From: Shinella pollutisoli
GTDB lineage: Bacteria; Pseudomonadota; Alphaproteobacteria; Rhizobiales; Rhizobiaceae
Reading direction: 5' to 3'
Length of the DNA: 64,000 nt
Assembly: GCF_024609765.1 (NCBI RefSeq)
Contig: NZ_JANFDG010000014.1
Coordinates: 62,001 to 126,000 of the forward strand
Numbering within the stretch: position 1 is the stretch's first letter; each line of letters starts with the position of its first letter. The translations under genes were made by a program, and so were the position numbers. The notes under the pieces are model-generated. The model worked only from the letters and a program-made list of their open reading frames with translations. It was not told the DNA's origin and made no database searches. Shown here in pieces: positions 18,942-60,906 of this stretch.

Positions 18942-20351
18942 TCAGAGGCCGAGCCAGCGGGCGCAGTCGGCAAGCGCGCGCGCGGCCGTCGCCTGCTTCT
19001 TGGCGAGCGCCTTGTCCTTGCCGCGGAAGCGCTTCAGGCCTTCGGGCCGGACGAGCGCGCCCGGCTCCAGCGGCGGGAACAGGCCGAAATTGACGTTCAT
19101 CGGCTGGAAGGAGCGCTTGCCCGGCTCGTCGTCGGAAACGATGTGGCCGCCGGTGATGTGGCCGAGCAGCGCGCCGAAGGCGGTGGTCTCCGGCGGCAGC
19201 GACGGCGTCTCTCCGCGCCGCTCGGCGGCGGCGAAGCGGCCGGCGAGCAGGCCGATGCTGGCGCTTTCGACATAGCCCTCGCAGCCGGTGATCTGGCCGG
19301 CGAAGCGCAGGCCCGGCCGGCCCTTCAGCGTCAGCGACCGGTCGAGCAGCACCGGCGAATTGATGTAGGTGTTGCGGTGCAGGCCGCCGAGCCGGGCGAA
19401 TTCGGCGTTCTCCAGGCCCGGGATGAGGCGGAAGATCTCCGCCTGCGCGCCGTATTTCAGCTTCGTCTGGAAGCCGACCATGTTGTAGAGCGTGCCGAGC
19501 GCATTGTCCTGGCGGAGCTGCACGACGGCATAGGGCTTGACCGACGGGTTGTGCGCGTTGGTGAGGCCCATCGGCTTCATCGGCCCGTGGCGCAGCGTCT
19601 CGCGGCCGCGCTCGGCCATCACCTCGATCGGCAGGCAGCCGTCGAAATAGGGCGTGCCTTCCCATTCCTTGAAGCCGGTCGTGTCGCCGGCGACGAGCGC
19701 GTCGATGAAGGCGTTGTACGCGGCCTCGTCCATCGGGCAGTTGATGTAGTCCTTGCCCGTGCCGCCCGGCCCGACCTTGTCGTAGCGCGACTGGTACCAG
19801 CAGATATCCATGTCGATGCTGTGGGTGTGGACGATGGGCGCGATCGCGTCGAAGAAGGCGAGCTGGTCGGCGCCCGTGCGCGCCTGGATGGCGGCGGCGA
19901 GCGACGGGGCGGTCAGCGGGCCGGTGGCGACGATCGCCTGGTCCCAGTCGTCCGGCGGCAGGCCGGTCACTTCCTCGCGCACGACCGCGATCAGCGGATG
20001 GGCCGCGATCGCCGCGGTGACGGCGGCGGAAAAGCCCTCGCGGTCGACGGCGAGCGCACCGCCGGCCGGCACCTGGTTGGCATCCGCCGCCCGCATGATC
20101 AGCGAGCCGGCGAGCCGCATCTCCGCATGCAGCACGCCGACGGCGTTGCTGGTCGCGTCGTCGGAGCGGAAGGAGTTGGAGCAGACGAGCTCGGCAAGGC
20201 CGTCCGTCTTGTGGGCATCCGTGCCGCGCACGCCGCGCATCTCGTGCAGGACGACGGGCAGGCCGCTTTCGGCGATCTGCCAGGCGGCTTCCGAGCCCGC
20301 GAGCCCGCCGCCGACGACATGGATGGGAGAGGGGAAGGAGGTCTTCGTCAT
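18942..20351 (-). CDS. trmFO: Methylenetetrahydrofolate--tRNA-(uracil-5-)-methyltransferase TrmFO
   Basis: 469 residues. The FAD-binding dinucleotide fold [14 protein letters not shown] is at the N-terminus, and [20 protein letters not shown] and [18 protein letters not shown] are diagnostic of TrmFO/Gid. The enzyme uses methylene-THF and FADH2 to make m5U54 in the T-loop of tRNAs. The start ATG at 20351 is the only good one. Convergent with the small hypothetical gene; upstream lies a DUF1127 terminator. Confidence 0.96.
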
Positions 20352-20480: not shown

Positions 20481-20624
20481 TTAGCGGAAGGAACGGGCAG
20501 CGATGTCGCGGATGTCGTAGCGGGTCAGGCCGATGTCCGAGAGCGTGTGGTTCGACAGGTTGCCGAGTTCGTTCAGGGTGCGGCGGTAGCTGATCCAGTT
20601 CTTGGCGATGCGGATGGGGTTCAT
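20481..20624 (-). CDS. DUF1127 mini-protein A
   Basis: 47 residues, Arg-rich, starting MNPIRIAKNWISYRRTLNEL and ending RYDIRDIAARSFR. The pattern W-x(2)-YR-x(2)-NEL-x(2)-L-x(5)-L-x-DIG is the DUF1127 (YjiS-like) family. In Rhodobacter a DUF1127 protein (CcaF1) is an RNA-binding partner of small RNAs, and in Agrobacterium such proteins affect phosphate and stress responses. It has its own downstream terminator. A ribosome site (GAGGAGAG) lies 6-13 nt before the ATG. Confidence 0.88.
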   Translation of the reverse strand: MNPIRIAKNWISYRRTLNELGNLSNHTLSDIGLTRYDIRDIAARSFR

Positions 20625-20897: not shown

Positions 20898-20934
20898 AAA
20901 AAGAAACGCCTCCCGGGAGACCCGGAAGGCGTTT
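20898..20934 (-). terminator. Terminator of the second DUF1127 gene
   Basis: On the minus strand AAACGCCT / AGGCGTTT encloses a GC-rich loop and runs directly into TTTCTTTTTG. It lies 27 nt after the stop of DUF1127 gene B, so genes A and B are probably separate transcripts. Confidence 0.82.
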
Positions 20935-21111: not shown

Positions 21112-21328
21112 ACCCCTTTCCTGCTGTGGCGGTCGGCGGCCGCTGCGCGGCGCCGCCCCTCGATTTCATGGTGACAATATATGCTGCGCTGCGAAAAATT
21201 ACAGCGATATTGCCGTATGGCGACTATGCGTTTTGTGCATGTCAAGCGGAAATTTCGGCAAAATCCTGGCGAATTTGCGGGCAGGTCGCCATAAAGCCGT
21301 CGTGCTGGCGGCGAAGGCGTTGCCGGAC

Positions 21329-21453
21329 GAAAAAGCGACGCCCGCCGGGGGAGGAGGTCCGGCGTGCGTCGCTGGTCTCGATCGGCGGTCCGGGAGGAGA
21401 AGCGATCGCCGACCTGGTCGGGGACGTGGGGAGGAGGAGATCGTCGCCCGACC
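21329..21453 (-). ncRNA. Cuckoo/CcsR-type small RNA candidate 2
   Basis: Three successive minus-strand hairpins expose an anti-Shine-Dalgarno loop. At 21416-21453 arms GGTCGGG+GACG pair with CGTC+CCCGACC around loop ATCTCCTCCTCCCCA. At 21380-21414 arms GGTCGGCG / CGCCGATC enclose a loop with TTCTCCTCCC. At 21335-21372 a 14-bp stem with one mismatch (starting GCGACGC) has loop ACCTCCTCCC and is followed by TTTTT, making it the terminator. A minus-strand CTATAT at 21464-21469, preceded by a run of C, could be the -10 box, placing the start just before the first hairpin. The architecture equals the alphaproteobacterial 'cuckoo' RNA family; the annotation rests on structure only. Confidence 0.75.
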
Positions 21454-21634
21454 GATGCGCTCCATATAGGGGGATGAGCGGCGGGGCGGTAGGGGACGGG
21501 CGGCATGGCAAGCATGCGGATATTGCATATGTCGTCCCGCCGACTCCGCAGGGATGCCCAAGGAATAGGCTTGCCCTGACGGATAGGGCGGCGGAAGCGG
21601 GGAAACCGGCGGCGCTTTCCGAATCCGCCATGCG

Positions 21635-21758
21635 GAAAACAATGACGCCCGCCGGGGGAGGAGATCCGGCGGGCGTCACTAAAGATGATTGGCAACCGGG
21701 AGGAGGAGTGTTGCCAATCGTATCGGAACGGCGTTGGGAGGAGGAGTACGCCGCTCCG
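21635..21758 (-). ncRNA. Cuckoo/CcsR-type small RNA candidate 1
   Basis: Three minus-strand hairpins. At 21724-21758, 11-bp arms CGGAGCGGCGT / ACGCCGTTCCG (one G-U pair) have loop ACTCCTCCTCCCA. At 21687-21719, perfect 10-bp arms GATTGGCAAC / GTTGCCAATC have loop ACTCCTCCTCCCG. At 21643-21678, a perfect 13-bp stem (TGACGCCCGCCGG) has loop ATCTCCTCCC and is followed by TTGTTTTCC as terminator. It shares its terminator-stem design with candidate 2, suggesting duplication. Loops of CUCCUCCC can pair with GGAGG ribosome sites or sponge other RNAs. No protein-coding potential fits. Confidence 0.75.
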
Positions 21759-21904
21759 AATTCCGTCGATCTCCTTGCGGCGACCGGGTCTTGCGGCATC
21801 ATGCCGGGCGTTCGACCAATTCCGCCTTGTCGTTCGTCCTGTCGCTGAACCGATACGCTGCGCCGGGACGTTCGAGCCGGATCAATCCCGATCCGATGCT
21901 TGCA

Positions 21905-21933
21905 ATATAGGCCGGAAGGCCGCTTTTGTGCAG
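21905..21933 (-). promoter_or_regulatory. Promoter candidate reading into the small-RNA array
   Basis: On the minus strand CTGCAC and CTATAT are separated by exactly 17 nt. CTATAT is the favoured rhizobial -10 form; the -35 is weak. The PhaR-like site at 21926-21937 covers the -35 box. Confidence 0.4.
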
Positions 21934-21937
21934 TGCA
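21926..21937 (-). promoter_or_regulatory. PhaR-like operator upstream of the small RNAs
   Basis: The minus strand reads TGCACTGCACAA, a full match to TGCRNYGCASMA, the consensus I recall for Bradyrhizobium PhaR. It overlaps the -35 of the promoter candidate. Two other full matches in this window lie at the phasin and sthA promoters. Confidence 0.5.
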
Positions 21938-22154
21938 ATAAAAGCATGGAAGGTATGCGTCCCATGCATGCGCCGCTCGTCGCGTCCAGCCTGCTGCATT
22001 GCGTCAAAAATGACATGGATTTCTTTATTTCCCGTTAAGCTCCGCGTCGTTGGCGATTTTCGCCGGCTGGCGAATTTCCGCCGGCCCTGTATCGTCTCAA
22101 TCCGGCAGGCGCGGATTCGTTCGCGCGACGGCGGCAAGGAACGGAGCGGCGCGG

Positions 22155-23255
22155 ATGTACAGGGGACGGCTGGAGCGGGACCTGAGGCACTGGACGGCGG
22201 CGGGGCTTCTCGACGCGCCGACGGCCGCGCGCCTCCTGAAGGAATACGATTCGCGCGAAAGCGCCTTCAGCGTCGGGCGCGTGCTGATGATCATCGCGGC
22301 ACTTCTCGTCTCCGCCGCGATCCTCCTGCTCGTCGCGTCGAACTGGGAGGCGATCCCGCGCCTTGCCCGGCTCGTCGGCATCGTCGGGCTGATCTGGGGC
22401 GCCTATCTCGCCGGCGGCCTGCTCCTGGCGCGCGGGGCGGGGCGGCTGGCGGCGGCCTTCCTGGTGATCGGCACGCTCGCCTTCGGCGGCGCCATCGCGC
22501 TCGTCGGGCAGATGTACCATCTTTCGGGCGACGCCACGCAGGCCATGCTGGTGTGGTTCGCCGGCGCCGTGGCGGCGGCCCTGCTCTTCCGCTCCGGCGC
22601 CGTGACGACGATCGCCGCCTTCCTCGCCTTCGCCGTCGCCGGCAACGAATGGACCCAGTCCGGCACCGACGAGGCCCTGCTCGTCTGGCTGATGCCGGCG
22701 ATGGCGCTCGTCGTCGTCCTGCTCGTGCGCTATACGGGGGCCGAGCGCACCCGCCATCTCGCCTACCTGCTGCTCGTCGCCTGGCTCGGCCTCCTCTACG
22801 GCGAATACGAGCGTCCGGCGACGGCCGTCGCGATCGCCGCCGCCGGGGCCGCCGGCTACCTGCTCGCCGCCCTGCCGCAGTCGCCGCTCCGGGCGCTCGC
22901 GCGGAGCGCGGGTGCGGCGCCCGCCTTCTATTCCTATCTCGTCCTGCTGCTCGGCCTCCTCCTGCTGCACGCCGAATACGACGATGCCGGCGGCCGGCTT
23001 TTGCTCGGCGTCGTCACGCTCGCCGCGGCGATCGGCGGCATCGCGCTCTCCGGCCGCGAGAACGGCGCGGTGCGCTACCTCGGCTATCTCGCCTTCGCCG
23101 CCGAGACGCTCTATCTCGCCTCCGAGACGATCGGCTCGATCCTCGGCACCTCCGGCTTCTTCCTCGTCTCCGGCCTCGTCGTCGCGCTGATCGCCTGGGC
23201 CGTGATCGCGCTGGAGCGACGGTTTTCCGCACGCAACGCCGGGGAGGGAGCATGA
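22155..23255 (+). CDS. DUF2157 multi-pass membrane protein
   Basis: 366 residues from ATG 22155; earlier in-frame starts lack family similarity. The soluble N-terminus (LERDLRHWTAAGLLDAPTAA) is the DUF2157 signature, followed by about ten hydrophobic helices, including the conserved GGAIALVGQMYHLSGD. The function is unknown; in many bacteria it pairs with a GDYXXLXY protein, as here, often with a DUF4401 protein between them that is absent in this window. The stop overlaps the next start (ATGA). Confidence 0.88.
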   Translation: MYRGRLERDLRHWTAAGLLDAPTAARLLKEYDSRESAFSVGRVLMIIAALLVSAAILLLVASNWEAIPRLARLVGIVGLIWGAYLAGGLLLARGAGRLAAAFLVIGTLAFGGAIALVGQMYHLSGDATQAMLVWFAGAVAAALLFRSGAVTTIAAFLAFAVAGNEWTQSGTDEALLVWLMPAMALVVVLLVRYTGAERTRHLAYLLLVAWLGLLYGEYERPATAVAIAAAGAAGYLLAALPQSPLRALARSAGAAPAFYSYLVLLLGLLLLHAEYDDAGGRLLLGVVTLAAAIGGIALSGRENGAVRYLGYLAFAAETLYLASETIGSILGTSGFFLVSGLVVALIAWAVIALERRFSARNAGEGA

Positions 23256-43869: not shown

Positions 43870-45078
43870 TTACCGCTCCACCAGGGCCATCTTGGCGTTG
43901 AACCAGTTCATGAACAGCGAGGTCACGAGGCTGATCGAGACATAGATCAGCATCCAGATCGCGATGATCTCGACCGACCGGCCGGACTGGTTGAGGATGG
44001 TGCCGCCGACCGCCACGAGATCGGCGTAGCCGACCGCCACGGCGAGCGAGGAGTTCTTGATGAGGTTGAGGTACTGCGAGGTGAGCGGCGGGATGATGAT
44101 GCGCAGCGCCTGCGGCAGCACCACGAGCCGGGTCGCCTGGCGCGGGCGCAGGCCGAGCGCGTAGGAGGCCTCCGTCTGCCCGCCGGGCACGCCGCGGATG
44201 CCGGCGCGCACGATCTCGGCGATGAAGGAGGCCGTGTAGAGCGACAGCGCCAGGTAGAGCGCCAGGAATTCCGGCCCGACGACCATGCCGCCGCGCATGT
44301 TGAAGGAGCCCGGCACCGGATAGTCGAAGGAGAGCGGCCTGCCGGAGGCGAGGAACACGGCGAGCGGCGGCAGCAGGATCAGCGCCAGGTTGATGCGCGC
44401 CACGGGCGGGCGCTTGCCGGTCGCGCGCTGCCGGGCGTTGGCCCAGAGCGTGAAGGCGATCGCCGCGACGACGCCGAGGGCGAAGGCCGCGACGACGAGC
44501 CCGAAGCCCTCGCCGAACACCGGCGCCGGCATGTAGATGCCGCGGTTGGAGATGAAGAACACCGCGTCCGGGTCCTCCTCCAGGTGCTGGAAGATCGAGC
44601 GGATCGACGGCAGCAGCGCCAGCACGCCGAGATACCAGAAGAAGATGACGAGGAGCGGCGGGATGTTGCGGAAGATCTCCACGTAGACCGTGCACAGCCG
44701 CGCGATCAGCCAGTTGTGCGAAAGCCGCCCGGTGCCGATCAGGAGCCCGACGATCGTCGCCGTGACGATGCCGGCGGCGGCCACGACCAGCGTGTTGATG
44801 AGGCCGACCTGCAGGGCGCGCATGTAGGTCGAGTCGCTCGTATAGGCGATGAGGCTCTGGGCGATGTCGAAGCCGGCGCGGCTGTTGAGGAAGCCGAAGC
44901 CCGCCGTCATGTTGGCGCGCGCGAGGTTCTGCGCGGCATTGTGCCAGGCGTACCAGATCACCCAGACGATGACGACGAGCGTCAGGACCTGGAAGACGCC
45001 GCGCCGGACGGCCGGATTGTAGAGAAGAGATACCTTCGGCGGGTCGCCGGACCCTGTTCGGGTGTCCGCAAGTGCCAT
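43870..45078 (-). CDS. aapQ: General L-amino acid ABC transporter, permease AapQ
   Basis: 402 residues from ATG 45078, preferred because GGGG sits ~7 nt before it; ATG 45090 has no ribosome site. The EAA loop [20 protein letters not shown] is present and the N-terminal half is long, as in AapQ/BztB. It heterodimerises with AapM. aapJQMP imports a broad range of L-amino acids and affects solute efflux in rhizobia. Confidence 0.95.
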
Positions 45079-60733: not shown

Positions 60734-60808
60734 CATTTTTACCCCGCTGCCCTTGATTTGCCGGAAAACTGCGGTTAAGGGGCAGCCATTCCACACGTAA
60801 GGCATGGG

Positions 60809-60850
60809 ACGGTCCGGGAGACATCCGGACGGTTCCGCCGGTGGCGGACC
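60809..60850 (+). promoter_or_regulatory. Structured leader of rpsB
   Basis: Two adjacent hairpins, GTCCGG / CCGGAC (60812-60830) and TCCGCC / GGCGGA (60834-60848), lie about 60 nt before the rpsB ribosome site. Such leaders upstream of rpsB can mediate S2 feedback control. This one is predicted from base pairing only. Confidence 0.4.
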
Positions 60851-60906
60851 CGGTGAGGGTCGGCTGATCGCCTTGCGGAGGTTCAACCGGAAAAGGAGAA
60901 AAAGGC

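Follow-up and report, generated by a model that had tools for sequence, protein, structure and literature searches.

The 64-kb window (the whole stretch of DNA analysed here) carries on its minus strand a compact locus in which two small RNA (sRNA) genes come first, two genes for small DUF1127 proteins follow, and trmFO comes last (Table 1). Between 21333 and 21764, the minus strand folds into six stem-loops, grouped three and three as set 1 and set 2. Each of them presents the 8-mer CTCCTCCC, at 21736-21743, 21698-21705, 21656-21663, 21429-21436, 21392-21399 and 21349-21356, and no further copy occurs on either strand of the whole window. The nine-base CCUCCUCCC is complete in four of the six loops, loops 3 and 5 hold TCTCCTCCC, and the 8-mer is common to all six. 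Across the 5.22 Mb genome, CTCCTCCC was counted 240 times (118 + 122 on the two strands). With a chance expectation of about 0.009 sites per 395 nt of one strand, the probability of five further copies is ~5e-13.

Table 1. Features of the sRNA-DUF1127-trmFO locus (positions in the window)
Feature	Position	Strand	Evidence or remark
LsrB-type box TGCATGGGACGCAT of set 1	21955..21968	-	exact in 19/21 Shinella loci; at least 7/8 bases in 21/21
Fourth TGCA-N6-GCAT, opposite orientation	21934..21947	+	between the first box and the set 1 -10
Set 1 promoter TGCACA - 17 nt - TATATT	21904..21932	-	promoter scan, 9/12 bases
Set 1 structured 5' leader (predicted)	21765..21897	-	start site predicted from the position of the -10
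Set 1 sRNA, alpha-r14 body	21640..21764	-	RF02344, 122 bits; fold z -10.0; covariation, 20 distinct Shinella rows
Set 1 hairpins	about 21723-21759, 21687-21719, 21640-21681	-	CTCCTCCC in each
LsrB-type box TGCAATATCCGCAT of set 2	21514..21527	-	exact in 7/17 and at least 7/8 bases in 16/17 Shinella carrying set 2
Set 2 -10 element CTATATG	21463..21469	-	distance to box as in set 1
Set 2 sRNA, alpha-r14 body	21333..21456	-	RF02344, 65.7 bits; fold z -4.6; covariation, 17 rows
Set 2 hairpins	about 21416-21453, 21375-21414, 21334-21373	-	folding
LsrB-type box TGCACAAAACGCAT of first DUF1127 gene	21226..21239	-	21 Shinella loci: at least 7/8 bases in 21/21, exact in 12
DUF1127 -10 element TATATT	21176..21181	-	58 nt after box start; 20/21 Shinella with at least 5/6 bases at 58-59 nt
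DUF1127 small protein 1, 49 aa	20962..21111	-	PF06568, 64.1 bits
Terminator-like hairpin after DUF1127 gene 1	20904-20934		terminator scan
DUF1127 small protein 2, 47 aa, between DUF1127 gene 1 and trmFO	20481..20624	-	PF06568, 54.4 bits
trmFO, conserved flanking gene	18942..20351	-	NF003739, 669 bits; TIGR00137, 528 bits

Two copies of the alpha-r14 sRNA family

Set 1 folds at -67.4 kcal/mol into three uninterrupted stems (12, 10 and 16 bp) that leave the motif single-stranded, and set 2 folds at -64.3 kcal/mol; in neither case did any of 200 shuffles fold equally well. In set 2, a bulge interrupts hairpin 1. The middle hairpin of this genome's copy is irregular, and its minimum-energy fold pairs part of the motif, while the same loop is open in the consensus fold of 17 Shinella sequences. 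In both sets the last hairpin is G+C-rich and is followed by a U-rich tract, TTGTTTT in set 1 and TTTTT in set 2, and the third hairpin of set 1 together with its tract is likely a terminator. Neither closing hairpin is listed by a terminator scan confined to loops of 3-8; their loops measure 10.

With RF02344 (ar14; cmscan, Rfam 15), both sets score above the gathering threshold of 58.8 bits. Each has three hairpins with an unpaired motif, apart from the middle loop of set 2 in this genome, and each consists of adjacent hairpins sharing one anti-Shine-Dalgarno loop, the property that, with a number of 2-4 hairpins, defines cuckoo RNAs (PMC3927594, PMC10746234). Sets 1 and 2 are two members of the already known rhizobial sRNA family alpha-r14 (NfeR1/'cuckoo' type).

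A preliminary description, made from the DNA letters, had read the locus as two tandem sRNAs with anti-Shine-Dalgarno loops and had proposed a covariance-model scan as a check. It was right on both the RNAs and their kinship with the cuckoo/CcsR group: for alpha-r14, PMC10746234 refers to the paper on cuckoo RNAs, and PMC3927594 compares three- and four-hairpin Sinorhizobium meliloti RNAs with the two-hairpin RS0680a of Rhodobacter. Its two times three minus-strand hairpins, all with the loop motif, lie within a few bases of ours, and the U-rich tracts that it placed after the third hairpins are present in both sets. It gave stems of 8-14 bp, several of them perfect; the set 1 stems are indeed unbroken, but stems reach 16 bp and two hairpins of set 2 are bulged or irregular. 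Its suggestion that three hairpins might be a variant of a two-hairpin form does not hold, since alpha-r14/NfeR1 RNAs normally have three (PMC10746234, PMC7143759) and members with two, three and four hairpins were already described in 2011 (PMC3927594), which rules out a novel variant.

The family is common among relatives. When this genome and 60 related ones were searched with RF02344, 45 of the 61 gave a match at E <= 0.001 and 37 a match over the cut-off, and none was found in 14 control genomes. All 20 same-genus relatives searched carry it, 16 of them with a second copy downstream of the first (in one, G001, the two are about 1.1 kb apart). A third copy in this genome lies on contig C1:50263-50405 (minus strand) and scores 108.6 bits with the three-hairpin model; a fourth CTCCTCCC just upstream makes it a four-loop member. 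A fourth RF02344 match is weak, at 43.5 bits and under the cut-off. Elsewhere in the window, 60792-60905 on the plus strand matches the rpsB sRNA family RF01815 with 42.9 bits (gathering score 40).

A tandem pair of this kind is already known from S. meliloti (PMC2873474, PMC2573895). SmelC397 (1667491-1667614, minus strand, 124 nt) and SmelC398 (1667766-1667982, minus strand, 217 nt) are reported in PMC2873474, and smrC14, identical with sm7, and sm7' are placed within one 922-bp intergenic region in PMC2573895; SmelC397 is NfeR1 (PMC7143759). In three trmFO loci of Sinorhizobium/Ensifer, two sets likewise precede trmFO in this order. Given the single intergenic region of the S. meliloti pair and this shared order, set 2 is probably the positional counterpart of NfeR1/SmelC397 and set 1, with its leader, that of SmelC398, which makes this the probable nfeR1 locus of Shinella. 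The likeness to S. meliloti NfeR1 (SmelC397, SmrC14; RF02344) extends to the three hairpins, the CUCCUCCC loops, the body of ~124 nt, a CTATAT -10 element, an LsrB-type box and the second copy in the same intergenic region, whereas the -35 element reported for NfeR1, CTTAGAC, differs from that of both Shinella sets. SmelC398/sm7' is likewise the upstream partner on the same strand with the longer transcript, although set 1, at about 262 nt as inferred from its promoter, would be longer than the 217 nt of SmelC398. Northern blots in S. meliloti reliably detected just one of six copies (PMC7143759), and so one of the two Shinella sRNAs may be nearly silent.

Other named RNAs resemble the two sets less closely. 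SmelA075, SmelA099 and other cuckoo RNAs with 2-4 hairpins share the loop and the hairpin modules but differ in locus and hairpin number. AbcR1/AbcR2 (alpha-r15) are also tandem sRNAs with anti-Shine-Dalgarno motifs, a link to LsrB and transporter targets, but they bind Hfq, form the separate family RF02345 and are located elsewhere in this genome.

Predicted promoters, LsrB-type boxes and a probable set 1 leader

In S. meliloti, a TGCA-N6-GCAT box ahead of the core promoter is reported to mediate the activation of NfeR1 by LsrB (PMC10746234). This pattern occurs exactly three times on the minus strand of the window, with first bases at 21968, 21527 and 21239, that is, once ahead of each sRNA and once ahead of the first DUF1127 gene; both sRNAs, like NfeR1, have a predicted LsrB box upstream of the core promoter. 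A fourth match, in opposite orientation, lies in the same region (Table 1), and the window's fifth is at 44810, away from the locus. Genome-wide, 168 matches were counted against 76 for a reversed control. For four boxes within 743 nt we obtained P ~1e-8, or ~1e-4 when all such windows are counted, for a region that was picked after inspection. Depending on which of three search widths was used, at least 7/8 box bases were found in 22%, 7% and 17% of random windows, and exact boxes in 10%, 3% and 7%. Of the 16 Shinella loci with at least 7/8 bases in the set 2 box, 14 keep its spacing of -90/-91 to the first loop.

In the window, a TATAT -10 element lies 58-59 nt downstream of the start of each of the three boxes, as TATATT, TATATG and TATATT. 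A -10 with at least 5/6 bases of TATATT stands 58-59 nt past the box in 19/21 (set 1), 8/17 (set 2) and 20/21 (DUF1127) Shinella loci, compared with 1.2% of random places; these box and -10 counts come from related genomes and are not independent. The set 2 -10 CTATATG is not listed by the promoter scan.

NtrC is reported to repress NfeR1 via TGC-N11-GCA, a site that is not evident once the promoters of plant and mammal pathogens are included (PMC10746234). Unlike NfeR1, the two Shinella sRNAs have no such pattern near their promoters; the sole match between 20900 and 22500 is distant, at 22380.

On contig C14:35721-36049 (minus strand) of the same genome, two tandem ar15 (AbcR) sRNAs lie beside a LysR-type gene, and the lsrB gene of S. 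meliloti likewise adjoins an AbcR pair (PMC7143759). Since no NCBIfam name over the cut-off was obtained for this LysR gene among the 25 families listed, its label 'LsrB' rests on synteny.

Considering that the -10 element of set 1 lies ~140 nt ahead of its first hairpin, we infer a leader of about 130-140 nt. The leaders of 19 Shinella genomes, including this one (128-141 nt), share a consensus fold of -27.3 kcal/mol, compared with a mean of -5.2 (sd 2.3) for column-shuffled alignments. In two Shinella genomes (G002, G005) the box is at -113 rather than between -214 and -227, and the leader is largely missing. Loci L016 and L017, from two Shinella species, retain box, -10 and hairpins with most of the leader gone and represent natural leader-less forms. 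No DUF1127 signal was found in the set 1 leader (best E 1.8 in 117 translated frames, from 39 leaders times three, with stops as X), and a decayed DUF1127 gene as its origin has no support.

Candidate targets and probable mode of action

The pattern GGGAGGAG-N3-9-ATG, a Shine-Dalgarno sequence complementary to the loops, has 34 matches in the genome; its reversed form has 5. The loci of 30 of these 34 sites were taken, and 27 of the 30 open reading frames (ORFs; at least 49 aa) were scanned. As a control we used another strong Shine-Dalgarno sequence, GAAGGAGA-N3-9-ATG (86 in the genome, 9 reversed), for which 30 of the 86 loci were taken in contig order and 22 of 30 ORFs scanned. Parts of ABC transporters, namely seven solute-binding proteins and two BPD_transp_2 permeases, make up 9/27 of the ORFs behind GGGAGGAG and 0/22 of those behind GAAGGAGA. 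With 20 control ORFs, Fisher's test gave P 0.003 for ABC-transporter parts and 0.014 for the binding proteins alone; it gave P 0.008 for Pfam-matched ORFs only (9/24 vs 0/14) and 0.014 for contigs C1-C12 only (4/12 vs 0/20). The test has one control motif, and transporter genes might have purine-rich Shine-Dalgarno sequences for unrelated reasons. The enrichment at these candidate sites matches the predicted targets of NfeR1 (PMC10746234, PMC7143759). A Dus-family gene was found at the end of contig C56; the start of ntrB, a studied NfeR1 target, lies beyond that contig end.

NfeR1 is reported to silence ABC-transporter and ntrBC mRNAs independently of Hfq. We regard the two Shinella RNAs, with high confidence, as trans-acting base-pairing repressors of the alpha-r14 (NfeR1) family that are under LsrB-type control and silence many mRNAs via their ribosome-binding sites; their expression, their activation by LsrB and the silencing mechanism would follow what has been worked out in S. 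meliloti. Each sRNA would be transcribed from its own sigma-70-type promoter, whose -10 element lies 58-59 nt downstream of the start of an LsrB-type box, and would terminate at its third hairpin. The hairpins would expose their CUCCUCCC loops for pairing with GGGAGGAG-like Shine-Dalgarno sequences, and this pairing would block ribosome binding and lower the translation and stability of many mRNAs, presumably above all those for nutrient uptake by ABC transporters.

The same loops could instead make the hairpins mainly sponges or mimics of the 16S rRNA 3' end, which would bind purine-rich RNAs or sequester factors rather than repress defined mRNAs. They hold CCUCC, the anti-Shine-Dalgarno core (PMC10783764), repeated six times, and an RNA sponge has been reported from Caulobacter (PMC12559287). 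We nevertheless consider this unlikely, as NfeR1 is reported to silence targets, the redundant function of its three motifs having been confirmed genetically (PMC7143759), and the enrichment of transporter genes behind the complementary Shine-Dalgarno sequence fits defined targets.

Gene order at trmFO and conservation of the hairpins

The neighbourhood was surveyed in the best 80 of 589 confirmed trmFO loci, some of them short, using exact copies of CTCCTCCC. Loop clusters were detected within 2.6 kb upstream of trmFO in 44 of these 80, and every one of the 44 also has a DUF1127 gene on the same strand: 19 loci have the sRNAs first and two DUF1127 genes downstream, 22 have DUF1127 upstream only, and 3 have it on both sides. 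Among the 36 loci without a cluster, 23 have DUF1127 and 13 have neither. Within the same best 80 of 589, 24 of the 44 loop-cluster loci have an exact box no more than 260 nt ahead of their first element, compared with 3% of random windows, and such a box lies at most 200 nt upstream of 12 of the 38 downstream DUF1127 domains in sRNA-first loci; both limits were our choice.

The form with DUF1127 upstream resembles the CIN1 locus named in PMC10253847, where anti-Shine-Dalgarno RNAs, CcsR1-4 of Rhodobacter sphaeroides, likewise stand beside a DUF1127 gene, ccaF1. There a precursor is reported to be cut by RNase E into the ccaF1 mRNA and CcsR1-4 (PMC10253847). The Shinella sRNAs might similarly be maturation pieces of a DUF1127 operon transcript, and DUF1127 is upstream of the hairpins in 25 of the 44 loop-cluster loci (best 80 of 589). 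For this window, we judge such an origin quite improbable. CIN1 is a single operon with DUF1127 first, whereas here the order is reversed, both sRNAs lying upstream of the DUF1127 genes; each sRNA and the DUF1127 gene have a box and a -10 of their own and apparently separate promoters; and the set 1 leader is free of DUF1127 signal.

Rhodobacter CcaF1 binds RNA and participates in the maturation of the CcsR RNAs (PMC10253847), while DUF1127 proteins of Agrobacterium are reported to work by protein contacts (PMC12501420). In Brucella, VtlR is a positive regulator of AbcR2 and of three DUF1127 genes (PMC12595884), with which the box before the DUF1127 gene of the window is in keeping. Beyond the two repressor sRNAs themselves, we tentatively suggest, as possible rather than probable, that the trmFO locus is a miniature regulon, in which an activator of the LsrB/VtlR type would act through three boxes, each at the same distance from its -10 element. 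It would drive the two anti-Shine-Dalgarno sRNAs together with a DUF1127 protein that may itself act on these RNAs. The form found in Rhizobiaceae would have derived from an operon in which cleavage released the sRNAs from the 3' end of a DUF1127 mRNA; later the sRNAs would have acquired promoters of their own and come to lie upstream of the protein genes. The set 1 leader, which two Shinella species largely lack, would form an independent and dispensable regulatory domain. Considering that the set 1 leader holds no DUF1127 signal, the step from operon to autonomous gene has left no sequence trace here.

A literature search covering titles, the starts of abstracts and passages found no published description of the locus in Shinella or of the three-box arrangement, though the gene orders may already be in print. 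Three known strands, NfeR1, the control of DUF1127 genes by VtlR/LsrB and the CIN1 pairing of sRNAs with DUF1127, meet at one conserved place beside trmFO. The locus therefore makes testable whether DUF1127 proteins act on neighbouring anti-Shine-Dalgarno RNAs outside Rhodobacter and whether LsrB is their shared switch.

Variable stems around constant loops, as in RF02344 members, were found across relatives. The set 1 alignment comprises 21 Shinella genomes including this one (20 distinct rows), and 96.8% of its cells are paired; two-sided changes affect 25 cells in 7 pairs, compared with shuffled means of 8.4 and 4.2, and sliding the structure by 1-3 columns left 1-5 such cells. For set 2 (17 rows including this genome), 97.0% of cells are paired, and the two-sided changes extend to 12 cells in 7 pairs, compared with 3.0 and 2.6 in shuffles. 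No two-sided changes occurred in helix 2 of set 1 or in helix 1 of set 2, and the measure of further pair types is not clearly above shuffles, 391/500 and 51/500 of which reach the value of sets 1 and 2, respectively. By contrast with the stems, the 8-mer is intact in 21/21, 21/21 and 21/21 rows for loops 1-3 of set 1 and in 16/17, 17/17 and 16/17 rows for those of set 2. The preliminary description had proposed selection on the loops and named, as what would speak against it, loops that vary while stems do not covary; the opposite was found among Shinella, and selection on the loops is supported.

A broader set of 75 loci, from which one duplicate was removed and in which other duplicates between collections may remain, gave the same picture: the stem was better than 95% of random positions at 295 of 352 clustered loops and at 4 of 28 isolated CTCCTCCC sites, and 242 of the 352 clustered loops have distinct stems. 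Although CTCCTCCC has 240 sites in the genome, a functionless repeat element or chance G+C-rich hairpins is a scarcely credible explanation in the face of the clustering, the RF02344 match, the covariation, the loop clusters at 44/80 trmFO loci (best 80 of 589) and these stem counts.

The longest array noted belongs to an Aurantimonas sp. (locus L079, 5098-5786), where eleven CTCCTCCC loops lie behind a DUF1127 gene as five pairs with a 137-nt period followed by one unpaired loop motif, an arrangement that looks like five consecutive two-hairpin units.
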